Shown: piece after piece, positions 7,545-32,798 of the stretch
Numbering within the stretch: the stretch's first letter is position 1
Layout: every line of letters starts with the position of its first letter
From: Acetobacter okinawensis JCM 25146
GTDB taxonomy: Bacteria > Pseudomonadota > Alphaproteobacteria > Acetobacterales > Acetobacteraceae
NCBI RefSeq assembly: GCF_000613865.1
Contig: NZ_BAJU01000029.1
Span: 1-33,630, forward strand
Reading direction: 5' to 3'
DNA length: 33,630 nucleotides
Made by a program: the position numbers and the translations under genes
The notes under the pieces: generated by a model
What the model was told of the DNA's origin: nothing
Database searches by the model: none
The model's input: only the letters and a program-made list of their open reading frames with translations

Positions 7545-7552
7545 AAAAGCTG

Positions 7553-8202
7553 TCAGATATGTGAGAAAACCGATTTTTCCGGCAGGCGGGATTTGGGGAG
7601 GCTGGCGTTGAAGTCGGCATCCGAATGGTAGCCCAGAGCGACAATAACGGCCGGAGACAGGCCGTTTTCTGCCAGTCCCAGTTCCGTGCTTAAAATGCTG
7701 GCGTCAAAGCTTCCATGGGGGTGGCATCCACACCAAGGAGTGCTGCGGACAAGAGCAGGAACCCCTGCGCAATATAGGTTTGCTTTTGCGTCCATGTCGG
7801 CACGTCCCCGGCCTGTTCATGGAGCCCCACAAAACCGGAGCGGCCTTTGTGCGCCAGAGCGCGTGCCTCCTCATTGGCATAGCGGCCATCGGCCTGTTCC
7901 TGATCAGCCAGCGTTTGCAGGTAGTCGGCAGGCAGGCTGTTGCGCGCACTCAGCACCACCACATGTGATGCGTCCATGACCCGTGGGGCATTAAAGGCGA
8001 ATGGACCACTGGTGGCCTTGGCAATCCGGGCTTTGCCCGCGTCATTGTCTGCGACAAAAAAGTGCCACGGCTGGGAGTTGACGGATGACGGGCTGTAACG
8101 CAGGGATTCCAGCAGTTGCGCCGCAATTGGGGCCGGTATCTTGCGCTCTTTGTCGTAAGCCTTTGTCGTGTGGCGGTGCTTGAGAATGTTAATCAGATCC
8201 AT
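7553..8202 (-). CDS. nfsB: NAD(P)H nitroreductase, NfsB type (frameshifted)
   Basis: Flavin-dependent oxygen-insensitive nitroreductase/dihydropteridine reductase. The N-terminal 165 residues match NfsB closely (ILKHRHTTKAYD, YSPSSVNSQPWHFFVA, FNAPRVMDASHVVVLSA, DQEQADGRYA), then the frame ends early at 7690. The rest (FDASILSTELGL..., LGYHSDADFNASLPKSRLPEK) continues in another frame to 7553. At about 7709-7711 the coding strand reads GAAGCTTT where the family needs GAAGGCTTT (Met-Glu-Gly-Phe-Asp). One missing G explains the break, and its restoration gives about 216 residues, the normal NfsB length. As written, the product lacks its C-terminal quarter. It is either a recent inactivation or a sequencing deletion. 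Confidence 0.9.
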
Positions 8203-8346
8203 GGTGCTGTCCTAACCTTTGCCCAATTTGCCACTGGCACAGACCGCAGCAGATGCTGCCGTCGCAGTGCCGATTGTGCATTACAGTGGGTTGGATGGGC
8301 AGGGAGATCAAGGGGGTAAAGCTGCACCCCATGGCACAGGGCCGGT

Positions 8347-10139
8347 CTAGGCGATGACAATCCTGTCCCGTCCATCTTTTTTGGCCTGATAAAGCGCCAT
8401 GTCGGCCTTGCGGATAATGGCCGATGTTTCTTCTGGCAGAGACTTGTCCCACATGGCAATGCCAAAGGACATGGTTATCTTGCCAAGGGTGCGGCCATTA
8501 TAGTGCAGTTCCAAGCGGGACAGGTTGTTACGCAGGCTTTCCACCCGCTGGACAAGTGCATCCAGCGGGTGGGACGCGTGATGATAAGGAATTCCTCCCC
8601 CCCAAAGCGGCAGACAATATCCTCGCTTCTGAAGGAGTTCTGTATTTCGTTGGCAATGGTGCGCAGGACCATGTCACCGGCGTCATGCCCGAACTCGTCG
8701 TTAATATGCTTAAAATGGTCAATATCGGCCATAATCAGGCCAAGGGCAGTGTGGTTCCTGTTGGCTGTAGCAATTTCCGCGTTCAGGCTTTCTTCCATAT
8801 GTCTGCGGTTGTACAGGCCGGTCAGCGGGTCGTGGATTGTCTGTTCAAGCAGGTTTTTTTGCAGGTTCTGGTTCACCAGAGCAGAGGCTATGTTTTCCAC
8901 CAGTGCGACAAGGCGGAAGCGGTTTTCCTCCGCGACAAGGCTTTGCAGGTACAAAAGCCCAACGACCTCACCACTCGCAAACAGCGGCTCGCAATGGTAG
9001 ATGCTGACATCATTCCCCACATGCTGGCAGACCACATCTCCCCCGCTGGTGGAAACGGCATGGCTCTGCCCTAACCGCAATGCCCAGCATGATGACGGGT
9101 GCAGCACGTCGCATCCCACAGCAATGGCACCCCATTGTGCAATGCGCTCAAGCTGGTTGGTTGTGTGGTTGTACGTGTACAATGCGCCGGGAATGTTGGG
9201 CAGCACACGTGGCACAAATGCGCAGATAATGGCTGATAGTTCATTACTGGTGCGCGCGGCCTGCAAGCGGTGAGCCATTTCGCCCAGCAGTTCCATGGCT
9301 TCGTTGTTGCGTTTGAGCTCCGCGTTGGCCTGGAGCAGCTTATGGTCACTTGCCTCCTGCGCCTGCATGGCGGCGTCCATCCGCTCGGCCATGGTGTTGT
9401 AGCCCTGAGCCAGCATGTCAAACTCGGTGCAGCCCATTTTGTCATCCACGCGGGCTGCGCGGTTGCCGTTCCCAAAGTCGGCCATGGCGCGCACGATCAG
9501 GCTGACAGAGCGGCGCATGCCGTTAAGCACAAGATACAGGAGGCCATTGACCAGCAGCACAATAATCAGGCAGCCACCAAGGACCAGCTTTCTGTTCCAG
9601 CTGACATGGGCTTTGGCGGTTGCTTCCCGCGCAATGAGCAGTTCTTGTTCCGTCTGCCGGATTTCTTCCGCCTTTTGCACAATAATGGCCATGTCCACAC
9701 GGCCCTGCCCCAGAACAACGCGGGATCTGGCCTCTTCAAACCGTCCCTGACGGGCGAGTGCTATCTGCTTGGTCAGGGTGTCTATGCGTTCATTGGTGGC
9801 AATTTGCAGGCTTTGTGCGCGCTCGTGCTGGACAGGATTGTCCTGCACCAGTTGTTCCAGCATGTTGACCTTGGACAGAGCTGCGGCAACGCGGTCGTCA
9901 AAATCCTTGGCAAAGGACGGGTCGGTGGTCAGGAGGTAGCCCCGTTCCTCGGCCTGTGCCTCGCGCAGGTCGGACAGGGTCTCGGAGACGATTTCTGTAA
10001 TTTTCTGCTTGTGGGTGTTCCATTCAAAGCTGGCAATCATGCTGTTGGAGGCAGAAAGCAGCAGACCCGAGAGGCAGACCAGATTAACGCTGACAATGGA
10101 GCCGACAAAGACGATCCGAGATGTAAGGGAATGGAGCAA
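8347..10139 (-). CDS. Membrane diguanylate cyclase CHASE3-HAMP-GAF-GGDEF (frameshifted)
   Basis: Makes the second messenger cyclic di-GMP. Order: TM helix (about residues 8-30), periplasmic CHASE3-like sensor with EAQAEERGYLLT, second TM (about 187-210), HAMP (to about 262), GAF-like domain (about 290-430), then GGDEF. The catalytic motif is GGEEF (about 512-516). An RSED inhibitory I-site lies five residues before it, so product feedback is expected. About five codons after GGEEF the frame breaks at 8574-8577: one missing base there separates it from the remaining part (HPLDALVQRVESLRNN... MSFGIAMW... ADMALYQAKKDGRDRI) that ends at 8347. The start is a TTG at 10137-10139, because a stop lies shortly upstream and the next ATG would lose TM1. 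The signal sensed is unknown. Confidence 0.88.
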
Positions 10140-10148
10140 AATAATCTC

Positions 10149-10173
10149 TTTGCACTATAAAATTTTGTGCAAA
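10149..10173. promoter_or_regulatory. Inverted repeat just upstream of the diguanylate cyclase
   Basis: TTTGCAC at 10149-10155 is perfectly repeated inverted as GTGCAAA at 10167-10173 around an 11-base AT-only spacer. It lies 10-34 bases before the cyclase start and overlaps the -10 side of the promoter candidate, a position suited to a repressor operator or a 5' leader hairpin. Confidence 0.4.
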
Positions 10174-10199
10174 ATACAGTATCTATTTCATCCATTCAA
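10171..10199 (-). promoter_or_regulatory. Candidate sigma-70 promoter for the diguanylate cyclase
   Basis: On the minus strand TTGAAT (10194-10199) and TATTTT (10171-10176) are separated by exactly 17 bases, upstream of the TTG start at 10139. The match is moderate and was found by eye. Confidence 0.4.
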
Positions 10200-10474
10200 T
10201 TCTGTTTTAGATGTCTTGTAAGAATATTCTGTGACTATGCAGCCTGATTTAATTCATTATTAAAGATCAGATAAAGCCTTTACGTATAAGTTGTGGTGTC
10301 AGCTCCGGCCGGGGATTAATACTCCGCATGGATTGCACGGGGGGCATCCGCGCGTGGAACCATGGTCGGCAGGCCGGAGTTTACAGGGTGTGGGTGCCAT
10401 AATGGTGCCGCAAAAGTAGCCAAACCTCGCTGGGTAAAATTGCGTAGTGGCTTAGGCCCAAAGGAATAAATCTG
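10200..10474. other. Intergenic stretch without recognised gene
   Basis: This divergent gap between the cyclase and the RcnB-like gene holds no convincing open frame on either strand. Its first part is AT-rich (about 10200-10290) and probably carries promoters for both genes. The rest is mixed sequence in which I see no clear terminator, RNA or repeat. Confidence 0.4.
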
Positions 10475-10903: not shown

Positions 10904-10909
10904 GTGCGC

Positions 10910-10945
10910 GCACAGGCTGGTATCCGCCGGACTGCCAGCCTGTGC
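10910..10945 (+). terminator. Hairpin after the RcnB-like gene
   Basis: GCACAGGCTGG (10910-10920) pairs perfectly with CCAGCCTGTGC (10935-10945), beginning seven bases after the stop codon. No T-run follows, so it may be a weak or factor-assisted terminator or a 3' stabilising stem. Confidence 0.5.
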
Positions 10946-10955
10946 GGCCATGGTG

Positions 10956-11002
10956 TTATCCACAGATTCTGAGGATGCTTGCGTGGGTAAGCCTGTGGAT
11001 TA
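10956..11002. repeat. Inverted pair of DnaA-box-like 9-mers
   Basis: TTATCCACA at 10956-10964 is an exact DnaA-box consensus. TGTGGATTA at 10994-11002 is its inverted partner with one deviation (TAATCCACA on the other strand). The eight-base cores (ATCCACAG / CTGTGGAT) form a perfect inverted repeat. The pair lies just before the manganese riboswitch, probably in its promoter region. Confidence 0.45.
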
Positions 11003-11049
11003 AAAGCGAATAAACAAAGGGTTGCAATCCGGAGCGGTGCTTGGTAGGC

Positions 11050-11211
11050 ATCGCCCCGTCCTTGGGGAGTAGTTACCCTCAGTCATGAGGGGCCTTCATC
11101 AACACACTTGGCTTTCGGGCCATGGTGGAGGCAGCGTTTTGGTAGCAAAACGCCAGGCAAGACCAACGGCAGCGGAACCTCCAGATGTGGCCGGGGGAGT
11201 TCCGTCTGCCG
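11050..11211 (+). ncRNA. yybP-ykoY manganese riboswitch with downstream hairpin
   Basis: The leader of mntP carries the hallmarks of the Mn2+-sensing yybP-ykoY element: CTTGGGGAGTAG at 11061-11072, TCATCAACACACTTGG at about 11097-11112, a small GGC..TTTCG..GCC stem, a second stem-loop (GGCAGCGTTTTGGTAGC...) and the closing GGCAAGACC near 11155-11163. A long imperfect hairpin (CGGCAG at 11167-11172 with CTGCCG at 11206-11211, plus inner GGAA/TTCC and CTCC/GGAG) follows and is probably the expression platform. The gene behind it is a manganese exporter, exactly the expected target: Mn binding should switch it on. Confidence 0.9.
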
Positions 11212-11241
11212 TGTGAGTCTCTTGCGGCCCTTGGAATTTTC

Positions 11242-11829
11242 ATGACCGGTATTTTCACGCTGGGTATTCTTGGTCTCAGCCTGTCTGTTGATGCTTTTGC
11301 CGCAGCGGTTGGCAAAGGTGCAACAGTGCAGAACGCCCGTTTGAACGATGCTGTACGTATTGGTGCCGTGTTCGGTTTTTTTGAGGCGATAACCCCCGTC
11401 ATTGGCTGGGTGCTGGGGCTGGCACTCAGCACATGGATTGCCGCAGTCGATCACTGGATCGCGTTTGGCCTGCTTTTGGTTATTGGCGGCAACATGATCC
11501 GCCTTGCCTGTACAGGGCATGATGCAGATACCTCCGAACGCGATGTCAGGGAGGCCCGGCATAATCGTGGCGTGCTGGGGTTGGTGACAACAGCACTGGC
11601 CACCAGCATAGACGCAACGGCTGTGGGGGTCAGTCTGGGTGTTATGCGGGTGAATATTCTGGCGGCCTGTCTGGTCATTGGTGGGACGACTACGGTGGTG
11701 GCTACGCTGGGCGTTATTATTGGCCGGCATGCCAGCGTGTGGATCGGCCGTTATGCAGAAATTCTGGGGGGCATAGCCTTGATCGGTATTGGCTGCTCCA
11801 TTCTCTATACGCATCTGAGCGCACCATAA
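11242..11829 (+). CDS. mntP: MntP manganese efflux pump
   Basis: Inner-membrane manganese exporter of 195 residues with about six hydrophobic helices in two repeated halves. Characteristic pieces are GLSLSVDAFAAAVGKG near the N-terminus and the matching second-half motif TTALATSIDATAVGVSLG, each with a membrane-embedded aspartate. I chose ATG 11242 because the family starts directly with the first helix. The frame is open to 11185, but that would extend into the riboswitch hairpin. Control by the manganese riboswitch at 11050-11211 fits perfectly. The ribosome site is weak (GGAA), as expected if it is masked by leader structure. Confidence 0.93.
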   Translation: MTGIFTLGILGLSLSVDAFAAAVGKGATVQNARLNDAVRIGAVFGFFEAITPVIGWVLGLALSTWIAAVDHWIAFGLLLVIGGNMIRLACTGHDADTSERDVREARHNRGVLGLVTTALATSIDATAVGVSLGVMRVNILAACLVIGGTTTVVATLGVIIGRHASVWIGRYAEILGGIALIGIGCSILYTHLSAP

Positions 11830-11838
11830 TTCTGGTTG

Positions 11839-14564: not shown

Positions 14565-14641
14565 CGGGGCGTGGCGCAGCCTGGTAGCGCGCGTGTTTTG
14601 GGTACACGAGGCCCCCGGTTCGAGTCCGGGCGCCCCGACCA
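14565..14641 (+). tRNA. tRNA-Pro (anticodon TGG)
   Basis: 77-base cloverleaf with acceptor stem CGGGGCG/CGCCCCG, D-arm with AGCCTGGTAG, anticodon stem CGTGT/ACACG enclosing TTTGGGT (anticodon TGG), T-arm with GGTTCGAGTCC and an encoded CCA at 14639-14641. Confidence 0.96.
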
Positions 14642-15008: not shown

Positions 15009-15085
15009 GCGCCCTTAGCTCAGTTGGATAGAGCAACAGCCTTCTAAGCTGTGGGTCATTGGTTCGAATCCAATAGGGCGCACCA
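15009..15085 (+). tRNA. tRNA-Arg (anticodon TCT)
   Basis: 77-base cloverleaf: acceptor GCGCCCT/AGGGCGC, D-arm AGCTCAGTTGGATAGAGC, anticodon stem CAGCC/GGCTG-like with TCT in the loop (CTTCTAA), T-arm GGTTCGAATCC and an encoded CCA at 15083-15085. Confidence 0.96.
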
Positions 15086-15395: not shown

Positions 15396-15411
15396 GGTTT
15401 TGGGTCTTGGG

Positions 15412-16265
15412 TCAGATGATGTAATCAATAGGTGGGAGTGTCTGGTCCATGTTCAGGGCGGGCATGCCCTTGTGGCGTACACCTACCTTGCGGGCAGGGT
15501 TGCCCACCACTGTGGTAAACGGGGGGACGGGTTCGAGCACTATGGAGCCTGCGCCAATTTTGGCACCTTCGCCAATTTCAATGTTGCCCAGCACCTTGGC
15601 TCCAGCCCCAATAAGCACGCCTCGACGCACCTTGGGGTGGCGGTCCCCGCAGTGCTTGCCAGTGCCACCTAGGGTGACATTTTGCAAAATGGATACGTCG
15701 TCTTCAATAATGGACGTTTCCCCCACGACTATGCCAGTGCCGTGGTCGAATAGAATGCGTCGACCAAGTTGGGCAGCGGGATGAATGTCCACTCCAAACA
15801 GTTCCGATGCCCGGCTTTGCATGTGCAAAGCCAGATGCCGCCGCTCGCACAGCCAGAGCCAGCGCGCAACCCGGTAGGTCTGCACCGCATGATAACCCTT
15901 GAAGAACAGGAAAGGGGTTACAAAGTCCGGGCAGGCCGGGTCACGTTCACGAATAGCCAGCAGGTCTGCGGCTGCTGCGCACACAATATCGGGCTCTGCG
16001 TCAAAACTTTCCTTGACCAGTTCGGATAGAGCATCCGCAGCCACGGAACGGTCCCCCAGCTTGCGGCCGATCAGGCCGCAAGGGCCGAGGCAAAGCTGGA
16101 ATGGCTGCGCACACCAGTGGCCAGTAGCCCGCGCACCAGCGGGTCATGGCAACTGCATGCCTCTTGGGTCATCTGTTCCCACAGCACGGTAAGCTGTGGC
16201 GCGCACAGCATGCTGCTTTCCTCAAAATGGCTGGAACTGACTGAGGCAATCTGAGCGTCGCTCAT
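15412..16265 (-). CDS. cysE: Serine O-acetyltransferase (frameshifted near residue 62)
   Basis: Makes O-acetylserine from serine and acetyl-CoA, the first step of cysteine synthesis. The C-terminal left-handed beta-helix with hexapeptide repeats is clear (VDIHPAAQLG, FDHGTGIVVGET, VSILQNVTLGGTGK, DRHPKVRRGVLIGAGAKVLG, NIEIGEGAKIGAGSIV). The N-terminal helical domain starts at ATG 16263-16265 (MSDAQIASVSS; LWEQMTQEAC...SHSSFASALA), then a stop appears at about 16071. One missing base at about 16077-16079 restores FASALAGLIGRKLGDRSVAADALSEL and the normal family order. Restored length is about 284 residues. The gene follows ubiH by 16 bases, so the two probably share a transcript ending at 15355. 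Confidence 0.92.
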
Positions 16266-16281
16266 CCCGGCTACTCCGTTA

Positions 16282-17535
16282 CTACAAACCCATGGCGTGC
16301 TTTACAAAAGCTTTCCGTAGGGCGGGAAAGCGATGCACGCCAGCAATACCCAGATCACGCGCAAGGCGGAGGACCGGGTTGTCATTACTGAACAACCTGT
16401 CCAGCGCATCTGTAGCGGCCAGCATGAGCATATTGGCCGGTCGGCACAAGGCCTGATACCGCGCGACAACGGCGGGAGCGCCGGGGTCTTTGCCCTGTGC
16501 GTGTATGTCCAGCAGCAATGGGCTCAGGTGGATGATATCCCGGTAGCCAAGGTTGAGCCCCTGACCTGCAATGGGGTGAATACCATGTGCGGCATCGCCC
16601 ACCAGAATAAGCCGTGTATCCGTATAACGCGCCGCGTACTGGGCGGAGAGCGGGTACGTCCAGCGCCGCCCCACGGGCGTTACGCGGCCAAGGCGGGTGT
16701 TGCCCATGCGGCGCTCCACCTGACGGGCGAAGGCATCGTCAGGCAAAGCGGCAAAGCGCTCGGCCACGCCGTCCTTGTCGCTCCACACAATGGCGGACAT
16801 GTAGGGGTGCTCATCCGTGCCAGTCATGGGGAGTTGTGCAAACGGGCCAGCAGGCAGGAAGTGCTCCAGAGCGCTGTTGTCGTGCGGGAACTCGTGGGCA
16901 ATGGCACACACAATGGCGGTCTGCCCGTAGGGTAGGCGGGTCAGGGGGATGCCAGCTTCGGTGCGCAGGCGGCTCCGGCGGCCATCGGCGGCCACAATCA
17001 GGCGGGCGTTAAAGCTGCGGCCATCAAGCAGTTGCACATGCGCGCTCTGGGCCGTGCGGGTAATTTTGGCTTCAGCCGGGGCCAGAACGGTCACGCCCGG
17101 AGTAGTGCTCAGGCATTTGTTCAGGGCAACACGCAGGGCGCGGGCTTCTACCATCCAGCCAAAAGGCTGTGTTGCATCCTCACGCGTGAACTCAAGGAAG
17201 AGGGAGGATGCAGGCTCACCCGGCCGACCATCGGTGACCAGGATTTCCTCAATAGGGCAGGAGGTTGTGGGGAGCTCGTCCCATATCCCTGCGCTTTCAA
17301 GGTATTCCTTTGGACCTGCGGCAATGGCATAGGCCCGCCCGTCCAGATCGGGGTGTTCCATGGGGGGGAGGGCAGCCTTGTCCACAACGGCGACCTGCAT
17401 GCCGCCACGTGCTAGACGGCAGGCAAGGGCCGCGCCAACGGGGCCCGCGCCAATAATGCACACGTCCACATCCGCGACAGGCGGGAGATGGGGGCTGGCG
17501 TGTTCTGCCGTGGCGCGGGGTGGGATTGGGCGCAT
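16282..17535 (-). CDS. UbiH/UbiF/VisC-family FAD-dependent hydroxylase (ubiquinone synthesis)
   Basis: Flavoprotein monooxygenase expected to hydroxylate the ubiquinone ring during coenzyme Q synthesis at the inner membrane. It is about 417 residues from ATG 17533-17535, preceded by AAGGAT. The frame is open to 17583 with a GTG/TTG-type start, but that extension is not family-like. The FAD-binding motif is Gly29-x-Gly31-x-x-Gly34 (CIIGAGPVGAALACRL). The second FAD motif near 310-328, VGDAAHGIHPIAGQGLNLG, is the UbiH family signature. Which ring position it modifies cannot be told from sequence. It is divergent from glnB and upstream of cysE. Confidence 0.9.
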   Translation of the reverse strand: MRPIPPRATAEHASPHLPPVADVDVCIIGAGPVGAALACRLARGGMQVAVVDKAALPPMEHPDLDGRAYAIAAGPKEYLESAGIWDELPTTSCPIEEILVTDGRPGEPASSLFLEFTREDATQPFGWMVEARALRVALNKCLSTTPGVTVLAPAEAKITRTAQSAHVQLLDGRSFNARLIVAADGRRSRLRTEAGIPLTRLPYGQTAIVCAIAHEFPHDNSALEHFLPAGPFAQLPMTGTDEHPYMSAIVWSDKDGVAERFAALPDDAFARQVERRMGNTRLGRVTPVGRRWTYPLSAQYAARYTDTRLILVGDAAHGIHPIAGQGLNLGYRDIIHLSPLLLDIHAQGKDPGAPAVVARYQALCRPANMLMLAATDALDRLFSNDNPVLRLARDLGIAGVHRFPALRKAFVKHAMGL

Positions 17536-17750
17536 GGGGTGTTTATCCTTACAATTCACGCATCTGGCAGGCGGCAGGCCCAAAAAGCCCGCACAGGCTG
17601 TTGCAGGTCATGCCCCCTATATGCGCTCTCCTTTGCGACAAAACCAGCCGTCTTGCCTTGAGGTGCATCAAAGCTCTTGGCAATTGGTGTTTAACTGTGC
17701 CAACATCGTAACGTCATGGAAATGTTTTGCAGCAAGGAGTTGCAGGCAGT

Positions 17751-18089
17751 ATGAAGCTGATTACCGCCATTATAAAGCCCTTTAAACTTGATGATGTCCG
17801 CGAGGCACTCGCGCCGCTGGGCGTTCAGGGGATTACTGTTTCCGAGGTCAAGGGTTTTGGTCGCCAGAAAGGGCAGACGGAAATCTATCGTGGAGCTGAA
17901 TACCGCATCAGCTTTCTGCCCAAGATCAAGGTGGAAGTTGCTGTCAGCGATGCCCTGCTCGATCAGGTGCTTGAAGCGATTCTAGATGCTGCCCATACGG
18001 GCAAGATCGGGGATGGCAAAATTTTTGTCAGTGACCTTACCCGCGTTATCCGTATCCGCACGCGGGAGACGGGGGACGCCGCTCTCTAA
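17751..18089 (+). CDS. glnB: Nitrogen regulatory protein PII
   Basis: Small trimeric signal protein (112 residues) that senses 2-oxoglutarate and ATP/ADP and is uridylylated when nitrogen is scarce. The T-loop with Tyr51 (RQKGQTEIYRGAEY) is intact, as are the B-loop (HTGKIGDGKIFV) and C-terminal RIRTRETGDAAL. ATG 17751 follows AAGGAG at 17734-17739. In many alphaproteobacteria glnB precedes glnA, but here it is followed by about 220 bases and then ispDF, so glnA is elsewhere. PII would act on the NtrB kinase encoded 3 kb downstream. GlnB and GlnK are hard to separate by sequence; absence of amtB favours GlnB. Confidence 0.93.
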   Translation: MKLITAIIKPFKLDDVREALAPLGVQGITVSEVKGFGRQKGQTEIYRGAEYRISFLPKIKVEVAVSDALLDQVLEAILDAAHTGKIGDGKIFVSDLTRVIRIRTRETGDAAL

Positions 18090-18109
18090 TGTTAAATTTG
18101 GTGGCGTAT

Positions 18110-18129
18110 CCTGCCTGCCGGTAGGCAGG
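18110..18129 (+). terminator. Short hairpin after glnB
   Basis: CCTGCCT (18110-18116) pairs with AGGCAGG (18123-18129), 20 bases after the glnB stop. No T-run follows. Downstream to 18312 I see no gene, only probable promoter sequence for ispDF. Confidence 0.4.
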
Positions 18130-18312
18130 TGCGGGGTGCGCGTGATCGCTCCTTGTGCATGGTAACCGGTCTGGGGGCGTTGTTCGCGGCAGTGTGCTGC
18201 CGTGCGGGCCGATGCATGCTGTGTTGCTTGCCGTACAGTCTGCTGTTTTAGGTCATCTTCCCTGCTATTTTGAGGCTTGACGGAGCGGGGGTGTGGTTCC
18301 ATTGCTTCGTAC

Positions 18313-19466
18313 ATGCGAGTAGCTGCCATTCTACTGGCTGCCGGTACAGGCAGCCGCTATGCCGCCACCACGGGGTGCGCCACGCCCAAGCAGTATGTGC
18401 TGCTTGCTGGCCAACCCGTTATCCGTCATGCCGCGCAGGCTCTGCTGCCGCATGTCTCCTCTATTCAGCCTGTAGGTGATCCGACCTCTCTGGCCGAGGC
18501 ACTGGATGGTTTGACCGTCCTGCCGCCCGTACAGGTGGGCAGACACGTCAGGCGAGTGTGCGCGCCGGGCTGGAAGCGCTTGATGCGCTCCCCCCTGAGC
18601 AAAAGCCCGATCTGGTGCTGGTGCATGACGGTGCCCGCCCGTATGTGAGCGCTGCGCTGGTCAGTGCCGTTGTGGCGGCTCTGACGGAGCATCCGGGTGC
18701 CATTCCCGCAGTGCCTGTGGCTGATACCCTCAAGCGTGAAAAAGACGGCGTTATCGACGGGACTGTCCCGCGTGATCACCTGTTCCGTGCGCAAACGCCT
18801 CAGGGCTTCCGCTTTGGTCTGTTCTTGGACCTGCACCGTGCTGCGGCATCGCTTGATGCGACCGACGACGCCGCCCTGCTTGAGGCCGCGGGTATGAGTG
18901 TTGCACTCGTGCACGGGGATGAAGATAATATCAAACTGACATACGAGGCAGATCTGGTGCGTCTTGAAAGGCTGATCGGCCCCACATTGCTGCCGCGTGT
19001 GGGTCTTGGGTATGATGTGCATGCTTTTGAGGAGGGGCGTCCGCTCATTATGTGCGGCATTACCATCCCGCATACACATGGCCTTGCCGGGCATTCCGAT
19101 GCCGATGTGGGGATTCATGCGTTGTGTGACGCCATTTATGGCGCGCTGGCCGAAGGGGATATCGGCAGGCACTTCCCCCCCAGCCAGAACGAGTGGAAGG
19201 ATGCGGATAGCGCCCGCTTTCTTATCCATGCAGGGCAGCGTATCCGCGAGCGGGGTGGCATGCTTGTCAATGCCGATCTGACCCTGATCTGTGAACGCCC
19301 CAAAATTGGCCCCCATGCGCAGGCCATGCGCGAGCGTCTGGCAGCATTGCTGGAAGTGGATGTGGATCGTATTTCGGTCAAGGCGACAACCTCGGAACGG
19401 CTCGGCTTTACCGGGCGTGAGGAGGGCATAGCCTGTGCCGCCACGGTGAGCGTGCTGGTGCCGTAA
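18313..19466 (+). CDS. ispDF: Bifunctional IspD/IspF isoprenoid enzyme (frameshifted in the IspD part)
   Basis: Fused enzyme of the MEP pathway: the IspD half (CTP-dependent cytidylylation of MEP) starts [18 protein letters not shown] and includes [13 protein letters not shown] and [10 protein letters not shown]; the IspF half (cyclodiphosphate synthase) starts near [14 protein letters not shown] and has the metal ligands Asp/His of GYDVHAF and His of GHSDADVG. Such a fusion is typical of alphaproteobacteria. At 18538-18542 the frame changes. One extra G in the GGG run would give [16 protein letters not shown], the conserved IspD segment. Since MEP-pathway enzymes are normally essential, a sequencing deletion is likely. 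ATG 18313 lacks a clear ribosome site; TTG 18277 is an alternative. Confidence 0.92.
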
Positions 19467-19544
19467 GGTTTTTACTGCTCAACCGTTACGAAAAACATTG
19501 CACAGGGGCGCGTGGATCGGTATTTCTGCCTAATTCGTAGGCAA

Positions 19545-21729: not shown

Positions 21730-21790
21730 CGATCAGCTTGCCTGAGCCTGATAAGCCTCTCCCTGTTGTTTTTCCTCTGGTCCAGAACGC

Positions 21791-23232
21791 ATGACACCGC
21801 TGCCCACCATTCTTGTCGCCGATGATGACCGGTCCATTCGCACAGTGCTGGGGCAGGCACTTGGCCGCGCGGGGTATCAGGTTCAGTTGACCCCCTATGC
21901 CTCGACCTTGTGGCAATGGGTGCAGGAAGGGGAGGGGGATCTGGTCATTACCGATGTGGCCATGCCAGATGGTAACGGGCTGGAGCTTGTAACCCGCATC
22001 CGCCAGATCCGCCCTGACCTGCGGGTTATTGTGATGAGCGCGCAGTCCACACTGACAACCGCAGTCAAGGCCACCCAGCGCGGGGCGTTTGAATATCTGG
22101 CCAAGCCGTTTGATCTTAAGGAACTGCTTGCCGTTGTTGCCCGTGCGCTCACAACCCCCGTGCAGGCTGCGGAAAAAACCACAGCCCCCCAGACGCCCGA
22201 AGAACGCCTGCCCCTGATCGGGCAGTCCGTAGTCATGCAGGGGATTTACCGTAGCATTGCCCGGCTGACGACTTCGGACCTGACCGTGATGATCACGGGG
22301 GAAAGCGGGACCGGCAAGGAACTGGTGGCCCGCGCCCTGCATGAATATGGCCGCCGCCGCAACGGGCCTTTTATTGCCGTCAATATGGCAGCCATCCCGC
22401 GTGAGCAGATTGAGAGCGAATTGTTCGGTTATGAGCGTGGCAGCAACCTGGGGCGTATGCCCGGCAGGTTTGAGCAGGCATCTGGTGGCACGCTGTTTCT
22501 GGACGAAATCGGGGATATGCCGCAGGAGGCCCAGACCCGCCTGCTGCGCGTTCTGCAGGAAGGGGAGTTTACAACCGTTGGCGGTTCCACCCCCCTGCAC
22601 GCCGATGTGCGCATTGTGGCTGCCACCCACCGTGACCTGCGGCAGGCCATTCAGGCAGGCACCTTCCGCGAGGACCTCTACTACAGGCTGAATGTGGTGC
22701 CGCTGCGCCTGCCCCCCTACGGGAACGGCGTGAGGATATTCCCCTCCTTGCCCGGCATTTTCTTGCACAGTGCCGGGAGGCTGGTGGAGGTTACCGGACG
22801 CTGGATGAGGAGGCCATGGACCGTCTGCAGGCATGGCGCTGGCCGGGCAACGTACGTGAGCTTGAAAACCTGATCCGCCGCATTGTGGCCCTGTATTCTC
22901 AGGAGACCATTACAGCGGATCTGGTGGACGCGGAGTTGGCGGACCCTCTGGGGAGCGAGTTTGAGCCGGACAGGGCGCCTGTGGCCGAACCGCTGGTCGA
23001 TTCAGTCTCCCGCCATATTGCCCGCTACCTTGAAGCCGGGCGCGAAGGCATGCCGCTACATGACCTGCATGCCCGCATTATAGCCGAGGTGGAACGCCCG
23101 TTGATCCAGATGACATTGACGGAAACACGGGGCAACCAGATCAAGGCCGCCGCCATGCTGGGGCTGAACCGTAACACCTTGCGCAAAAAAATACGCGATC
23201 TTGAAATTCCAGTCGTGCGCGGTGTGGTCTAG
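21791..23232 (+). CDS. ntrC: NtrC response regulator lacking GAFTGA (frameshifted)
   Basis: Receiver domain with phospho-acceptor Asp55 ([14 protein letters not shown]), AAA+ domain with Walker A GESGTGKE (about 170) and [13 protein letters not shown], and a C-terminal Fis-type helix-turn-helix ([20 protein letters not shown]). The loop that contacts sigma-54, normally GAFTGA, reads GSNLGR and the segment is shorter, so this protein probably does not activate sigma-54 promoters. A break in the run of six C at 22712-22717 (seven expected: [20 protein letters not shown]) separates the last part, with [16 protein letters not shown]. Restored length is about 480 residues. It lies 61 bases after ntrB. 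Confidence 0.92.
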
Positions 23233-23240
23233 TCTTGCCC

Positions 23241-25506
23241 ATGCCCAAAATGCCCCGGCTCCCCTTCAGGCATCTTTTCTCACGTGCACGGCTGCACTGG
23301 CTCCTGCGTGCCCTTGAGCGCAGGAGTGTTGCCGTAACTCTTGTTGCTCTGGCGCTGTGTCTGGTGTTTGCAACCTTTGTGGTGCTTTCCGGTGGCATGT
23401 CGTTCGGGCATTATGCCGTGGTCGAGCCGCTGGTGCTGGGCATTAACGGGCTGGTTCTGCTGCTTCTGCTCCTGGCCATGGGGGTGCGTGGCTGGCCTAT
23501 GCTGGTGGAATATCGCAAGGGACTGGCAGGTACGCGCCTGCATGTGCGCCTTGTAACCCTGTTTGGCATTGTGGCAGTGGCACCGACTGTTGTGGTTGGC
23601 GTGTTTGCTACCCTGTTCTTCCATTACGGAATCCAGATATGGTTTTCCGACAGGGTGAACACCGCCCTGAATGAGGCGCTACAGGCCTCTCGCGGGTATT
23701 TGCAGGAGCATAACGCCAATATCCGTACGGATGCGTTCTCGATGTCCAACTACATCATGAGCGCACAGAACGAACTGGCCGCCAGCGGGATGGAACTGCT
23801 GCAGGACACGATGCCCTGTCCCAGATGCTGGACAGTCAGGCCACCATACGCGGGCTGACAGAAGCACTTGTGTATGACCCCATTACCAACCGCGTTGTAG
23901 CCGCAGGCGGGTTGATGAGCCGCACGGGCTATTTGCAGGACCTCCCCCCACCCGCGGCAACACTTATGGCGCGCTCGAACGACGTGGCTATTCTCGACTC
24001 CCCCGATGAGCGCACGGTGCGCGCGGTTGTGGAGTTGTCGCAAACACCAACCCTGATGCTGGTGATTACCCGGCTGGTGGACCCGTCCATTCTGGAGCAC
24101 ATGCACCGGACGGAAAACGTGGTGGCGGATTACAAGCACCTCAACAGCAACAAGGCCAAGATACAGCTTACCTTTGTCATGATCTTTGTGCTGGTCGCGC
24201 TGCTGGTGCTGGCTGTTGCCGCCCTGATCGGCTTTGCGCTGGCAACCCAGATTGCCCGTCCGCTTGGCCTGCTGAGCATGGCCGCGCGCAGGGTGAGTGA
24301 GGGGGACCTGCGCGTGCATGTGCCCGAAACCGACCGGGATGATGAGGTGGCGGGCCTGTCACGCGCCTTTAACCGCATGACGGAGGAACTGGATAGCCAG
24401 CGTTCGGAGCTTATGGCCGCTTATGGTCAGATCAATGAGCGCAGGCGCTTTACGGAGGCTGTTCTGTCTGGCGTGTCCGCCGGGGTAATCGGGCTGGATG
24501 TGGAGCAGCGGATTGAACTGCCAAACCGTGCGGCCAGCGTGCTGCTCCAGACCAATCTGGCAGACGCCACGGGCGAACCACTGGCGACCCGTGTACCAGA
24601 GTTTGCTGCTCTGCTGGAGGAGGTGACCCGTGCGCCAGAGGCCGTTTTTACGCGGGAAATTCAGATTGGTCCGGCCAGCAGCCAGCGCACCCTGCTGGTG
24701 CGTGTGGGCGCGGAGCTGCGCGGCACCGTAACCGAAGGGTATGTCATGACGTTTGATGACATTACCGCCCTGCAACAGGCCCAGCGCAAGGCCGCATGGG
24801 CGGATGTGGCCCGCCGCATCGCGCATGAGATCAAGAATCCGCTGACCCCCATCCAGCTTGCGGCGGAGCGGCTCAAACGCCGTTTTCTCAAGGAGATCAC
24901 CTCCGACCCCGATACATTCGCCCAATGTGCGGACACAATCGTGCGTCAGGTCGGCGATATCGGGCGCATGGTGGACGAATTTTCGGCTTTTGCCCGCATG
25001 CCCCAGCCAATTATGAAGGATGAGAACCTTTCCCGTATTGCGCAGGAGGTGCTCATCCTGCAACGTAATGCCCATCATGAGATTACATACCACCTTGATT
25101 TGCCCGATCATGGGCCAATGGTCCGGTGTGACCGTCGGCTTATCAGTCAGGCCTTGATCAATCTGCTGCAAAACGCGGCGGATGCTATTGCCATGGTTCC
25201 CCGGCAGGCTGCCTCCCCCGAGCAGGGGGGCGGATCTGCGGGGAAGTATGGGTGCGTATTGCGCAGGAGGCGGAAAACATTGCTATTGTCGTTGCTGACA
25301 ATGGGGTGGGCCTTCCAAAAGACGACCGGAATCGCCTGACGGAACCCTATGTAACGCATAAGGCCAAGGGAACGGGACTGGGATTGGCTATTGTGAAAAA
25401 AATCATGGAAGACCATGGTGGAACCGTGCGTCTGGAAGACAGGGCAGGAGAGAGAGGAACGGTGGCTACTCTGGTTTTGCCGGTGAAAGACGACCATGGC
25501 GCATGA
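23241..25506 (+). CDS. ntrY: Membrane nitrogen/redox sensor kinase NtrY (two frameshifts)
   Basis: Large membrane kinase paired with NtrX. Order: three N-terminal TM helices (about 30-55, 65-85, 105-130), an extracytoplasmic segment, TM4 ([20 protein letters not shown]), HAMP, PAS (about residues 410-520), H-box [21 protein letters not shown]-box [14 protein letters not shown]1 DNGVGLP and G2 GTGLGLAI. Two frame breaks: one base missing at about 23808-23811 (ACG|ATG; restoring gives [17 protein letters not shown]), and one in the G-rich stretch 25225-25243 (restoring gives ...[17 protein letters not shown]). Restored length is about 755 residues. It starts 8 bases after ntrC and its 3' end overlaps ntrX by 11 bases. 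Confidence 0.92.
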
Positions 25507-26887
25507 AATCCTGATCGTTGATGACGAACCCGATATCCGGATGCTGATTGAAGGCATTCTGTGTGATGAGGGATATGAGGCCCGCGTGGCTTCCAGTTCC
25601 GAGGCCGCGTTGGCGGCGTTCAGGGTACGCAGGCCATCGCTGGTCATTCTGGACGTGTGGTTGCAGGGCTCGGACATGGATGGGCTGGAAATCCTGCAAA
25701 CCATGAAGGCGGAGGAAGCCTCCGTCCCCGTGGTCATGATCTCGGGCCATGGCACGATTGAGACCGCAGTAGCGGCACTCCAGCACGGGGCTTATGACTT
25801 TATAGAAAAGCCTTTTCAGGCAGATCGGCTTCTGGTCATTGTCCGGCGTGCGCTCGAAGCCTCCCGCCTTGCGCGTGAAAATGAGGAACTGCGCCTGCGG
25901 GCCGGGCATGATGCCGAGCTGTATGGCAATAGCGCGCAGATTGTGGCCATTCGCAACCAGATTGAAAAAGTGGCCCCCACCGGCTCGCGCGTGCTCATTA
26001 GTGGCGGGCCGGGGTCTGGCAAGGAGGTGGCTGCGCGCATGATCCATGCCCGCTCCCGCCGGCCCGACGGGCCGTTTGTCGCACTGAACTGCGCAACACT
26101 GGCACCGGGCCGTTTTGAGGAGGAACTGTTCGGGCTTGAGGGCGGGGTGGATGGCGTGGGCCGCCGTACCGGTGTGCTCGAGCGTGCCCACGGTGGCACC
26201 CTGCTGCTGGATGAAGTGGCCGACATGCCGCTGGAAACACAGGGCAAGATCGTACGCGCCTTGCAGGACCAGACATTCGAACGCCTTGGCGGTGGGGCGC
26301 GGGTTAAGGTGGATGTACGCGTACTGGCGACCACCAACCGTGACCTTCAGGCCGAAATTGTGGGTGGGCGCTTCCGCGAGGATCTGTACTACCGTCTGGC
26401 GGTTGTTCCCCTGCGTATGCCCGCACTCAAGGAACGGCGGGATGATATTCCCGGTCTGGCCACGCTCTTTTTGCACCGTGCAGCGGAAATGGCGGGCCTG
26501 CCCTCGCGCGATCTTTCGCCCGATGCGGTTGCCGTTTTGCAGGCGTATGACTGGCCGGGCAATGTGCGCGAACTGCGCAACCTGATGGAACGGGTGCTGA
26601 TTATGCAGCCCGGCAGCAGCCAGGACCTGATCCGCGCGGATATGCTGCCTTCCACCATCGGGGAGAACGCGCCGGGGCTGCTGAAGTTTGATGCCTCGAC
26701 CGATGTGATGAGCCTGCCCCTGCGAGAGGCGCGTGACCTGTTTGAAACCCAGTACCTTCAGGCGCAATTGTTACGTTTTGGAGGGAACATAAGCCGCACT
26801 GCGTTGTTTGTAGGCATGGAGCGGAGCGCTTTGCATCGCAAACTCAAGCAGCTTGGTGTAACATCGGACGAGCGGAACACTGGCTGA
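25496..26887 (+). CDS. ntrX: NtrX response regulator
   Basis: Intact 463-residue regulator paired with NtrY. The receiver contains Asp53 ([13 protein letters not shown]) and EKPF near 105. The AAA+ domain has GGPGSGKE as Walker [14 protein letters not shown] as Walker B and [15 protein letters not shown]. The C-terminal Fis-type helix-turn-helix is [20 protein letters not shown]. As in other alphaproteobacterial NtrX proteins, no GAFTGA is present (the loop reads GGVDGVG), so sigma-54 activation is not expected. It probably governs nitrogen, respiratory or envelope genes with the housekeeping polymerase. Next is hfq, 79 bases downstream. Confidence 0.94.
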
Positions 26888-26966
26888 TCAGTGAGTTGTT
26901 GCGGGGCATGCAGGGCGTTACGTCTGGCTCCCAAGAAAAAAAGAAAATGGAATAGGGTCGCACACA

Positions 26967-27251
26967 GTGGAAAAAGAGAGTGCACACAATGTGCAGGATG
27001 CATTTTTAGGCCAGATTCGTCGTTCCCGGGCGGCAGTGACCGTATTTTTGGTCAACGGTGTCAAACTTCAGGGATTTATTACGTGGTTTGATGATCAGGT
27101 CGTACTCCTGCGGCGTGATGAGCAAACCCAGCTTATTTACAAACATGCCATAAGCACTGTTATGCCCAGCATTCCCGTAGATATAGCAGAACCCACCGGA
27201 GCGGGCGCAAAGGCGGACAAGGAACCATCTCTTGGCGACGAGTTTTACTGA
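26967..27251 (+). CDS. hfq: RNA chaperone Hfq
   Basis: Hexameric Sm-like protein that pairs small RNAs with mRNAs. The 94-residue sequence has the Sm1 region ([40 protein letters not shown]) and the Sm2 signature YKHAIST, then a short acidic tail. Translation starts at GTG 26967, with AGGG about 10 bases upstream. Its end overlaps the likely TTG start of hflX by 20 bases, the usual hfq-hflX pair. Confidence 0.95.
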
Positions 27252-28550
27252 GAAAAAACAAACGGTTGCAACGCGTGCTGCCGTTATTCTGCCGTGGGAG
27301 CGCTCAGCCCACGGGCAGGACGTAAGGGCGGCCGAGGCACGGCTGGAAGAAGCCGTGGGTCTGACGGCTCCATTGGTCTGGTTATTGTTCGCAAAGCCGT
27401 GCTTCTCCTGCGGATGCGCCGCTCGGCCACATTGCTGGGCAAAGGGCAGATCGATTCCCTGCGCATTGCCATCAAGGCCGACAATATTGACGTGCTGGTG
27501 GTTGATACCAAACTGACCCCCGCCCAGCAGCGTAATCTGGAAACAGAGTTCGGGTGCAAGGTTATTGACCGTACGGGTCTTATTCTGGATATTTTTGGCG
27601 CTCGTGCCGCCACGCGGGAAGGGACGTTGCAGGTCGAGCTCGCCCATCTGGAATACCAGCGCTCGCGCCTTGTCCGCCTGTGGACCCATCTTGAGCGCCA
27701 GCGGGGTGGTTTCGGCTTTCTGGGCGGTCCGGGTGAAACCCAGATCGAAGCTGACCGGCGTATGATTGGCGAGCGCATTGTGCGCCTTAAAAAGGACTTG
27801 GAGCAGGTGCGCCGCACCCGTGGGCTGCACCGGCAGGCCCGCAAGCGTGTGCCATTCCCCGTTGTGGCGCTGGTTGGCTACACTAACGCAGGCAAATCCA
27901 CCCTGTTTAATGCCCTTACGGGGGCGACGGTCTATGCGCAGGATCAACTGTTTGCAACGCTGGACCCGACCATGCGTGCTATTGCGCTGCCATCGGGGCG
28001 GCAGGTTATTCTGTCTGACACGGTGGGGTTTATCAGCGATCTGCCAACGGAACTGATTGCCGCCTTCCGCGCAACGCTGGAGGAGGTCGCCGAGGCGGAC
28101 ATTATTCTGCACGTGCGTGACATAGCCCACCCAGACAGCGCGACCCAGAAGAGGGACGTGCTGGGTGTGCTGCAAAGCATGGCCAAGGATAACATGCTGG
28201 AGCAGGACTGGCCGACCCGTGTGATTGAGGTGCTGAACAAGGTGGACCTGCTAGGTGAGCAGGCAGCAGCCTTGCAGGGGGATGAAACGGTAGCCATTTC
28301 CGCCATTACGGGGGATGGGCTGGACCGGCTTCTGGCCCGTATTGACCAGCGTATTACAGCGGGGATGGAAATGGTGCGCTACGCCATGCCTCTGGCCGAA
28401 GGGGCCGCTCTGGCATGGTTGTACCAGCATGGTGAGGTGACGGACCGCCATGACCGGGAGGAGGAGACGGATATTACCGTGCGCCTTCTGGCCGAAGACC
28501 GTGCCCGTTTTGAACGGCAGTTCCGCCATATTATTCCCCAACTGGCCTAA
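27232..28550 (+). CDS. hflX: GTPase HflX, ribosome-splitting factor (frameshifted)
   Basis: Binds the 50S subunit and splits stalled ribosomes, notably in heat stress. The N-terminal domain ([20 protein letters not shown]...[44 protein letters not shown]) is followed by the GTPase domain: G1 [15 protein letters not shown]3 DTVGF, G4 NKVD. Near 27364-27366 the frame changes; one more G (CTGACGGGCTCC) gives [19 protein letters not shown] and joins both parts. The start appears to be TTG 27232 inside hfq, with AAGGA eight bases upstream, as no ATG or GTG is available in frame. Restored length is about 439 residues. Confidence 0.92.
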
Positions 28551-28579
28551 AAGGGGCCGGAGCAGGGGGTGCAAAACGG

Positions 28580-28613
28580 GGTGCGGGCGCGTTATGCGCT
28601 CCGCACCTTTTTT
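28580..28613 (+). terminator. Intrinsic terminator of the ntr-hfq-hflX cluster
   Basis: GGTGCGG plus GCGC pair with GCGC and CCGCACC (single T bulge) around GTTAT and are followed by six T, 29 bases after the hflX stop. It may also slow transcription of the convergent Nudix gene. Confidence 0.88.
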
Positions 28614-28616
28614 GTG

Positions 28617-29249
28617 TCAGTCAAATTCTGTTATCAGGCTCAGGTCAGCATGGTGTGCGAACAGCCGGTCAATCTGGGCGCGCGATATACGCCCGGTTGA
28701 GAGGTCGTGCGGAATTTCATTGCGTGCAAAAAAGCGCACTTCGCTGGTTTCAATGCTGGTGGCAGGTGCGCCACCGGTGAGTTCTCCCAGAAAAAACAGC
28801 TTGGTGATGGAAAAAGCCTCAGGTGGCTCATGCCCCTGCCTTGCGCGGTCCAGCGCCATGGCAAGGCGGGTAATCCTTACTGTATAACCCGTTTCCTCCC
28901 AGACCTCCTTGGCTGCGGATTCCGAGGCGGTGAGGTTCACATCCGCCCAGCCGCCGGGTACGGTCCAGCGGTTCTGGTCCAGCACTTCGCGCACCATGAG
29001 CAGGCGGTTATCTGCATCAAACACCCCGGTGCGCACTTCCAGCTTGGGGGTGGCGTACCCGGCCTGCTGGGCAAACAGGTTTTCAATCTGCTGCACAGGC
29101 GTGCCACTGCCCAACGCCATGGCTTTGGCGGCCAGAGTGCGCAGCATGGTGTAGCGTTCACGGTCAAACGGGTCTTTGGTAAAGGTCAGCCCGGTCTGGG
29201 CAATGGCCTGTATCTCTCTGGCCCAGACAAGCCATTCAGGCTCGGACAT
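28617..29249 (-). CDS. Nudix hydrolase with N-terminal Nudix_N_2-like domain
   Basis: 210-residue hydrolase of nucleoside-diphosphate-linked compounds, substrate unknown. The N-terminal helical part (EWLVWAREIQAIAQTGLTF, DPFDRERYTMLRTLAAKAMA) matches the small domain that precedes certain ADP-ribose-type Nudix domains. The Nudix box is degenerate: GWADVNLTASESAAKEVWEE, then TGY, carries Leu where the first Glu is usual and Lys for the conserved Arg, while the metal-binding E-x-x-EE core (EVWEE) is kept. It starts at ATG 29247-29249 and converges on hflX, with a shared terminator region. Confidence 0.88.
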   Translation of the reverse strand: MSEPEWLVWAREIQAIAQTGLTFTKDPFDRERYTMLRTLAAKAMALGSGTPVQQIENLFAQQAGYATPKLEVRTGVFDADNRLLMVREVLDQNRWTVPGGWADVNLTASESAAKEVWEETGYTVRITRLAMALDRARQGHEPPEAFSITKLFFLGELTGGAPATSIETSEVRFFARNEIPHDLSTGRISRAQIDRLFAHHADLSLITEFD

Positions 29250-29339
29250 GGTTTTTGTTCCCCTCTCTCAAAATAAAAAACGGGAAGGCGCGTGCCCTCC
29301 CGTTTTTCGCGTGGTGTTATGTCAGGCGTTAAGCCCGGT

Positions 29340-31952
29340 TCAGTAGGCGGGTTCGGGTTCTGCCGCTGCGTGCCCGTTAATCAGCAGGCCATCGCCATTG
29401 GCGGAGATGTTGACCGTCTCCCCGTCATGGATTGCCCCTTCAAGCAATTGCCCTGCCAGCGGGTTTTGCAGGCTGCGCTGGATAACCCTTTTAAGCGGAC
29501 GTGCGCCGTAAACCGGGTCATAGCCCTCGTTTGCCAGCCATGTTTCGGCCAGTGTATCAAGGTGCAGGGCAATTTTGCGGTCTTCAAGCAGCTTTTGCAG
29601 CCGGCTGACCTGAATTTCCACAATCCGCGCCATGTCCACCCGCTGAAGACGGGAGAAGAGGATTACCTCATCCAGCCGGTTCAGGAATTCGGGGCGGAAG
29701 TGTTCACGCACCACTTTCATAACCTGTGCCTGCACCATGGCCGGGGTGTCGCCATCGGGCTGGTTTGCCAGATATTCCGAACCAAGGTTGCTGGTCAGGA
29801 TGATAAGCGTGTTGCGGAAGTCCACCGTGCGGCCCTGCCCATCGGTCAGGCGACCATCATCAAGGACCTGCAACAGGATGTTGAACACATCCTCATGCGC
29901 TTTTTCCACCTCGTCAAACAAAATGACCTGATAGGGGCGGCGGCGCACGGCTTCGGTCAGCACGCCCCCTTCTTCATATCCCACATACCCTGGAGGCGCG
30001 CCAATCAGACGTGCCACGGCGTGTTTTTCCATGAACTCGCTCATGTCAATCCGCAGCAGGGCTTTGTCATCATCAAACAGGAAGCGGGCCAGAGCCTTGG
30101 TCAGCTCCGTTTTGCCAACGCCCGTTGGGCCAAGGAACAGGAACGACCCAATCGGGCGGTTGGGGTCCTGCAAACCTGCGCGGGCACGGCGCACGGCATT
30201 GGCCACGGCACGCAGGGCAGGCTCCTGCCCCACAACCGACTTGCGCAGTTCGTCCTCCATGCGCAGGAGCTTGGCGCGTTCACCCTCCAGCATCCGGTCC
30301 ACCGGCACACCCGTCCAGCGGGAGACAACGGAGGCAATGCCCTGATCCGTCACCGCTTCGGAGACGAGGCTGGCATTTTTGGCTTCTTTTTCTTCCGTCT
30401 GCTGGGCCGCGGCAATCTGGCTTTGCAGGTTGGGGATCACACCGTACATCAACTCGGATGCGCGTTGCAGGTCGCCTTTACGCTGGGCCACCTCCACATC
30501 GGAGCGGGCCTGATCAAGCTGCTCCTGCAACTTCTGCACGGCATGCACACGGTCTTTTTCCGCATGCCATGTTGCGCTGAGCGTGTTGGATTTTTCCTCC
30601 AGATCAGCCAGTTCAACCTCAACAGATTCCAGCCTGTCCTTGCTTGCGGTGTCATCTTCCTTGCGCAGGGCTTCACGCTCGATCTTGAGCTGGATAATGC
30701 GGCGGTCCAGTTCGTCCAGCTCTTCGGGCTTGCTGTCGATCTGCATGCGCAGCCGGCTTGCGGCCTCGTCAATCAGGTCAATGGCCTTATCGGGCAGGAA
30801 GCGGTCGGTAATGTAGCGGTTGGACAGGGTGGCAGCGGCTACAAGTGCACCATCGGTGATGCGTACACCATGATGGAGTTCGTATTTTTCCTTGATCCCG
30901 CGCAGGATGGAAATTGTGTCGGGCACCGAGGGCTCACCCACATAAACGGGCTGGAAGCGCCGGGCGAGAGCCGCATCTTTTTCAATATACTTGCGGTATT
31001 CATCCAGCGTGGTCGCACCAATGCAGTGCAGCGTGCCACGGGCCAGTTCGGGTTTGATCAGGTTGGAGGCATCCATTGCACCGTCGGTTCGACCTGCGCC
31101 AACCAGCGTGTGCATTTCATCAATAAACAGGATCACCTGACCTTCGGCGGTCTCAATTTCCTTGAGCACGGCTTTTAGGCGTTCTTCAAACTCACCACGG
31201 TATTTGGCGCCAGCACCAGTGCACCCATGTCGAGCGAGAGGAGCTTTTTGTTCTTGAGCGCTTCAGGCACGTCACCATTGACAATACGCTGGGCCAGCCC
31301 TTCCACAATGGCGGTTTTGCCCACACCGGGTTCGCCAATAAGCACGGGGTTGTTCTTGCTGCGCCGTGCCAGAACCTGAATGGCGCGGCGGATCTCCTCA
31401 TCCCGGCCAATGACCGGGTCGAGCTTGCCCTGTTGGGCGACCTCGGTCACATCCCGTGCGTATTTTTGAGCGCATCAAATTGGCCTCAGCGTTTTCACTG
31501 GTCACAGTGCGCCCTTTGCGGATGGTGGTAATGGCCTTGTCCAGCGCGTCCGGGGTGGCGCCATTGTTTTTGAGCGCCTGACCAGCCGGGCTGTCGGTTG
31601 CGGCCAAGGCTGCCAGCAGGCGGTCCTGAGCAACAAAGCTGTCCCCCGCTTTTTGTGCGATCTGCTCAGCGGAATCCAGAGCACGCACCAGATCGGGGGT
31701 TGCCGCGGGCTGGCCAGCGCCGCCGCCCTGCACTTTGGGCAGTTTGGCCAAAGCCTGCTCGTTTGCGGCGCGCACGCCATCGGGGTTGCCACCGGCTGCG
31801 CGGATCAGGGCCGATGCGGCACCTTCCTCATCATCAAGCAGGGCTTTAAGCAGGTGTTCGGGGGTAAGCTGCTGGTTGAAGTCACGCAGGGCAATGGTCT
31901 GTGCTGCCTGCAGAAAACCGCGTGAGCGTTCGGTAAATTTTGTAATATCCAT
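29340..31952 (-). CDS. clpB: ClpB disaggregase (three single-base deletions)
   Basis: Hexameric AAA+ chaperone that pulls apart heat-aggregated proteins with DnaK. The start is ATG 31950-31952 with GAGGG. Order: N domain ([18 protein letters not shown]), NBD1 with GEPGVGKT and ILFIDEMH, the coiled-coil M domain (about 400-530), NBD2 with GPTGVGKTE and [11 protein letters not shown]. Frame breaks: a T and an A appear missing 10 bases apart (coding-strand runs at 31477-31479 and 31463-31467; restoring both gives [17 protein letters not shown]), and one base near 31214 (restoring gives [19 protein letters not shown]). Restored length is about 871 residues, normal for ClpB. The three clean fixes point to sequence error. 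Confidence 0.94.
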
Positions 31953-32049
31953 AATATCCCTCTTGTCCCTTTATGGTAGGCGACTGAAGGCCGAGCCCCG
32001 TCCCGCTTTGCGGCAACGGAGGGCAGGGTCTGTCGTGTTGACAGTTCTA

Positions 32050-32078
32050 AGATTGGAAGGCCCCGGAGCACAGTCAAG
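32050..32078 (-). promoter_or_regulatory. Candidate RpoH (sigma-32) heat-shock promoter of clpB
   Basis: On the minus strand CTTGAC (32073-32078) is followed after 17 bases by CAATCT within CCAATCTTA (32050-32055). CTTGAC-type -35 boxes are the alphaproteobacterial heat-shock signature; the -10 match is only fair. The start of clpB is about 100 bases downstream. Confidence 0.5.
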
Positions 32079-32123
32079 GGGTGTGTGTGCATAAGCCGCA
32101 CACTGTGCGGAATGGCGGATATG

Positions 32124-32156
32124 AAAAAAGGCGAAGCGCAAGGGAGCTTCGCCTTT
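32124..32156 (-). terminator. Intrinsic terminator of sodB
   Basis: On the minus strand GGCGAAGC pairs perfectly with GCTTCGCC around an eight-base loop and is followed by six T. It starts about 35 bases after the sodB stop. Confidence 0.92.
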
Positions 32157-32190
32157 GTCCGCGCCGGGCCGTGTTGGCCGGGCTTTACAC

Positions 32191-32798
32191 TCAGGCCGCG
32201 TTCAGCTGGGCTTCTGCAAATTCGTAGTTTGCCAGCTTGTCGAGGAAGTTGGTGATGTAGTCAGGACGACGGTTGCGGAAGTCCAGATAGTAGGAGTGTT
32301 CCCACACGTCGGCGGTCAGCAGGGCCGTGCCCTGACCTTCGGCCAGCGGGTTGGTGCCGTTGGGGGTTTTGGTAATGGCCAGCTTGCCATCCTTGCCCAG
32401 AACGAGCCATGCCCAGCCAGACCCGAACTGGGAGATGGCGGCCTTGCGGAATTCGTCCTTGAAGGTGTCGATGCTGCCGAAGTCGGCGGTAATTTTTGCG
32501 CCCAGTTTTTCGGGCATGGCACCACCGGAGGTGGACAGGCTGTTCCAGAAGAACGAGTGGTTCCAATGCTGACCAGCGTTGTTGAACAGGCCGGTCAGAT
32601 CAGCCTTGCCGTGCGCGGCCAGAATGATCTCTTCAAGGGACTTGCCAGCAAGCTCAGGCTTGCCTTCAAGCAGCGTGTTCAGGGTGTTGACGTAGGTAGG
32701 TGGTGCTTGCCGTGGTGGAACTCGAGTGTTTCCTGGCACATGCCACGGGCGGCCAGAGCATTGGGTGCGTAGGGGAGGGTTGGCAGTTCAAAAGCCAT
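32191..32798 (-). CDS. sodB: Superoxide dismutase, Fe type (frameshifted near the N-terminus)
   Basis: Converts superoxide to oxygen and peroxide. The N-terminus from ATG 32796-32798 (MAFELPTLPYAPNALAARGM) reaches metal ligand His28 in FHHGKHH. Then one base is missing at about 32697-32699 (CACCACCT-ACCTACGTC). Adding it gives HHLTYVNTLNTLLEG and the rest of the enzyme, including NNAGQHWNHSFFWNSL, GSGWAWLV and DVWEHSYYLDFRNRRPDY (Asp and His ligands). Gln at the NNAGQHW position favours the iron form over manganese. GGAG lies nine bases before the ATG. Restored length is about 202 residues. Together with katA it clears superoxide and peroxide. Confidence 0.94.

Follow-up and report, generated by a model that had tools for sequence, protein, structure and literature searches.

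The window, i.e., the whole stretch of 33,630 nucleotides analysed here from Acetobacter okinawensis JCM 25146, runs from base 1 of contig C99 in an assembly (G000) of 3.16 Mb in 127 contigs. Among the contigs sampled from this assembly the length climbs with contig number, from a minimum of 531 bases, which suggests a short-read product. Ten genes of the window are broken by deletions private to it, and in all ten the reading ends prematurely as assembled:

7553 to 8202, minus strand, nitroreductase (first read as nfsB; Pfam nitroreductase); break near 7711, 170 of 216 codons readable
8346 to 10139, minus strand, CHASE3-HAMP-GGDEF protein, a diguanylate cyclase (Pfam); break near 8578, 554 of 597 codons readable
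15412 to 16265, minus strand, cysE, serine O-acetyltransferase (Pfam and NCBIfam); break near 16075, 64 of 284 codons readable
18277 to 19466, plus strand, ispDF (Pfam and NCBIfam); break near 18535, 123 of 396 codons readable
20624 to 21729, plus strand, ntrB (Pfam and NCBIfam); break near 21398, 271 of 368 codons readable
21791 to 23232, plus strand, ntrC (Pfam); break near 22711, adjoining a C run, 360 of 480 codons readable
23235 to 25506, plus strand, ntrY (Pfam); breaks near 23806 and 25239, 207 of 757 codons readable
27232 to 28550, plus strand, hflX (Pfam and NCBIfam); break near 27367, 94 of 439 codons readable
29340 to 31952, minus strand, clpB (NCBIfam); breaks near 31476, 31462 and 31213, 184 of 871 codons readable
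32191 to 32798, minus strand, sodB (NCBIfam); break near 32696, 39 of 202 codons readable

The three clpB deletions total one codon, yet a stop is present in the shifted stretch. The window also holds a manganese (yybP-ykoY) riboswitch (11052–11154) directly upstream of an mntP-type manganese exporter gene (11185–11829), which is an ordinary arrangement, and the genes for tRNA-Pro (TGG; 14565–14641) and tRNA-Arg (TCT; 15009–15085), for which no internal indel was listed against the sister genome G022.

G022 is collinear with the window over almost its entire length at 94–95% identity. Positions 15408–33630 were compared in a seven-way alignment of the window and six relatives, while the nitroreductase and GGDEF sites were read from an alignment of positions 7115–10288. 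A sequence-only reading of this DNA had claimed at least 13 deletions of a single base, spread over the ten named genes, and no clear insertions. All 13 were recovered and each was polarised as a deletion in the window, private insertions being found only outside the named genes. The comparison with relatives that this reading had proposed as a check placed none of the 13 in G022 or in any outgroup scorable at the site. The neighbouring katA, dusB and ntrX, which it had listed as intact, are indeed so, and the gene it named ubiH is without a private indel. With queries taken from G022, 92 of 93 gene-by-genome checks in 11 relatives found the orthologue unbroken (one tblastn match with at least 93% coverage and no stop); a further 17 combinations gave no match within the relatives' stretches examined. 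The single failure was clpB of G013 (L102), split away from the three sites of the window; this split, too, may be an error of the G013 assembly. For katA (2508–3986), G022 had the only match among the stretches of the 11 relatives, several of which end short of the gene.

Over positions 15408–33630 the window carried 12 private deletions (11 one-base and 1 two-base) versus 0 to 3 in each of the six relatives, an excess that is more than chance, while its private insertions numbered 2 versus 0 to 6 per relative. Beyond the named genes, private one-base deletions were located near 5946 and 13593, and another near 6989, where an unnamed ORF starts, was private among the three rows aligned there. 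The gap of two bases near 32136 was private in the seven-way alignment and ambiguous when polarised; a one-base gap near 32077 was ambiguous as well. Private one-base insertions lay near 8258, 11948, 18102 and 32832, all beyond the named genes; the last was counted as coding, since a mechanically called ORF covers it in G022. A six-base in-frame deletion near 10646 in an rcnB-like gene was also private to the window and may be real variation.

The remainder of the assembly was sampled with six stretches from four contigs (three from C118 and one each from C127, C85 and C98; 118 kb aligned), which were set against G022 and up to four outgroups to polarise the indels. Contig C110 was dropped from the count, its first 20 kb having no match in G022. 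The ORFs used for the indel counts and for dN/dS were called mechanically (longest, non-overlapping), and some of them are antisense or intergenic. The polarised one- and two-base coding deletions were distributed as follows:

Window, 13 deletions in 29.7 kb
C118, 11 deletions in 51.3 kb
C127, 3 deletions in 16.6 kb
C85, 9 deletions in 18.7 kb
C98, 3 deletions in 17.5 kb

The same type of deletion was thus present on all five comparable contigs (of the 127 in the assembly), at about 0.29 per kb of coding sequence in the sampled contigs and with no significant difference in rate among the five (chi-square 7.1, P = 0.13). The window as a special decaying locus was rejected, the other contigs being alike. 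The direction was strongly one-sided: in 133,718 coding bases on the five contigs, the JCM 25146 assembly accounted for 39 deletions of one or two bases and 4 insertions (39 of 43; P = 1.6e-8 by sign test), versus 0 deletions and 1 insertion for G022 over the same bases. Another 20 coding events of this size remained unassigned, 19 of them unpolarised (12 deletion-like and 7 insertion-like in the JCM 25146 assembly) and one ambiguous.

By size, the polarised coding deletions comprised 35 of one base, 4 of two bases, none of three and one of six; the only three-base coding events, three in number, were all unpolarised. This scarcity of in-frame deletions against 39 frame-breaking ones points to a missing filter against frameshifts. 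Outside the called ORFs, this assembly accounted for 15 deletions of one or two bases and 2 insertions, and G022 for 4 deletions, with many further events unpolarised; non-coding events that were unpolarised, ambiguous or realigned were left out of the counts. Hence 15 of the 54 polarised one- and two-base deletions fell outside called ORFs, at a per-kb rate above that within ORFs, which counts against an origin in sequencing error, since real indels are tolerated outside ORFs.

On the other four contigs 22 ORFs were hit. A family scan of 20 of them gave a match for 14 at the thresholds used. These included DNA polymerase III alpha, ribosomal protein S2, elongation factor Ts, part of RecN, class II DAHP synthase, a copper-resistance multicopper oxidase and a copper ATPase, while a CckA-like kinase was also hit, with a score under the cut-off of that model. 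A single copy of rpsB was found in the assembly, on C118, split across two overlapping frames; the best DnaE match lies in two frames and tsf carries a two-base deletion. In polA, two deletions sum to three bases and the frame is open to almost full length. The broken ispDF of the window is the sole IspF match of the assembly, and a search of the assembly for a second intact copy of rpsB or IspF found none. Two more DnaE-like genes, on C110 and C73, had lower scores than the best DnaE and are probably error-prone polymerases. The one on C73 (G000:C73:11614-14093) appears split across frames, perhaps by another deletion of the same kind. C110 (L132) is plasmid-like: its first 20 kb had no match in G016 and G013 either, and it resembles, at 82.5%, a plasmid of Acetobacter orientalis with type IV secretion and pilus genes. 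The best named matches of the window's NtrX, in a search from which near relatives may be missing, belong to Acetobacteraceae; together with the plasmid match this makes Acetobacter the probable genus.

Numerous broken genes and a preference for deletions, a bias typical of real bacterial decay, would both be expected if a host-restricted or relaxed lineage had undergone real, very recent and genome-wide gene decay. Such decay, however, predicts that essential genes are spared, while the deletions were blind to gene function, with rpsB, tsf, dnaE and ispDF all broken; S2, EF-Ts and DnaE are indispensable to a viable cell, and the near absence of in-frame deletions speaks against decay as well. 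It also predicts that selection on the broken genes is relaxed or that nonsense changes are in excess there, and neither was found. For the ten broken genes of the window compared with G022, dN was 0.0035, dS 0.141 and dN/dS 0.025, with no nonsense substitutions. Over the 30 broken ORFs of the five contigs dN/dS was 0.081 before the first break and 0.062 after it, with three nonsense substitutions in total; as assembled, two of these ORFs have no stop and three stop ahead of the first polarised break, points that, like the nonsense changes and the open polA frame, speak against sequencing error. Purifying selection past the breaks is therefore strong and undiminished. The 19 'intact' ORFs (pooled dN/dS 0.19, five nonsense changes) are an unfair control, because antisense and intergenic ORFs among them raise dN/dS. 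The assembly size of 3.16 Mb, in addition, falls between the extremes of the listed members of the genus. Frame breaks in indispensable genes without accompanying decay are best read as data errors, and real decay appears highly improbable.

The deletions depended on homopolymers, although not in a simple way. Of the 48 one-base deletions, 46 were within runs of at least two identical bases, and the enrichment at run lengths from 1 to at least 7 was 0.08, 0.91, 2.96, 1.86, 4.48, 11.7 and 19.7, i.e., not strictly monotonic (2.96 at three versus 1.86 at four). Since 15 of the 48 were in runs of one or two and the enrichment was uneven, homopolymer undercalling is not a clean account of every site. 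Homopolymers are favoured by real slippage mutations too, so that deletions tracking run length might equally come from a hypermutable, mismatch-repair-deficient strain whose genuine slippage mutations were caught in the assembly. Against this, 28 of the 48 were in runs of two or three bases, which are short for slippage, insertions were few, and lethal targets such as rpsB were among the genes hit. A mutator of this kind is no more credible than real decay.

Still less probable is programmed or slippage frameshifting that would join the broken frames during expression. The two rpsB frames do overlap at the break, which would suit such a mechanism, but after exclusion of G022, the source of the queries, 82 of 83 checks across the ten remaining relatives found the orthologue unbroken in a single frame, and the sites are private and spread over unrelated genes, in contrast to the conservation of the shift site among relatives that programmed frameshifting predicts. 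The least plausible possibility is a living strain with hundreds of real frameshifts, including those in rpsB and dnaE, tolerated because slippage at short homopolymers, during translation or transcription, is unusually efficient.

The deletions are, with a probability of about 0.97, base-calling or consensus errors of the draft assembly. The sequence-only reading had already interpreted them as sequencing or consensus error, and this is supported by their being private, present on five contigs, one-directional, homopolymer-linked and indifferent to essentiality, with no relaxation of selection. In the proposed course of events, the reads would report runs of identical bases as too short and the assembler would retain the shorter count, so that the coding sequence of the sampled contigs would contain about 0.3 false deletions of one or two bases per kb; the reads would then be expected to contradict the consensus at the sites. 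The short contigs together with the distribution of run lengths hint at flow-based short reads, possibly from Ion Torrent or 454. Single-base, frame-breaking indels that are commoner in longer runs resemble the output of such flow-based sequencing (Ion Torrent, 454).

Ion Torrent is prone to homopolymer indels, and its genomes are overrepresented among the RefSeq exclusions for 'many frameshifted proteins' (PMC12046094). That paper differs from the present data in that adenine was most affected there, with a mean run of 5.5 (runs of at least three only), whereas here the missing base was C or G in 36 of 48 cases and the mean run was 3.6 (runs of one and two included). The Kastor study of long-read assemblies found mostly false deletions among the indels, associated with homopolymers 2–8 bases long, and one pre-correction completeness of 92.2, close to the 92.1 of the assembly analysed here (PMC12007338). 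Unlike those long-read assemblies, the present one has 127 contigs, sampled down to 531 bases, which fits short reads better, and it is from such features that we tentatively infer an Ion Torrent-like source in preference to a long-read one.

The broken genes are almost certainly an ordinary data-quality problem and not real mutations, and the actual genes of the organism are most likely intact. If the rate of 0.29 per kb were uniform over 3.16 Mb, several hundred reading frames would be broken in this assembly. False deletions could also explain its low completeness score (92.1, versus at least 99 in 31 of the 36 listed genomes of the same genus). Claims of gene loss or pseudogenes made from this assembly are unsafe, for example for NtrBC nitrogen control, ClpB and SodB.
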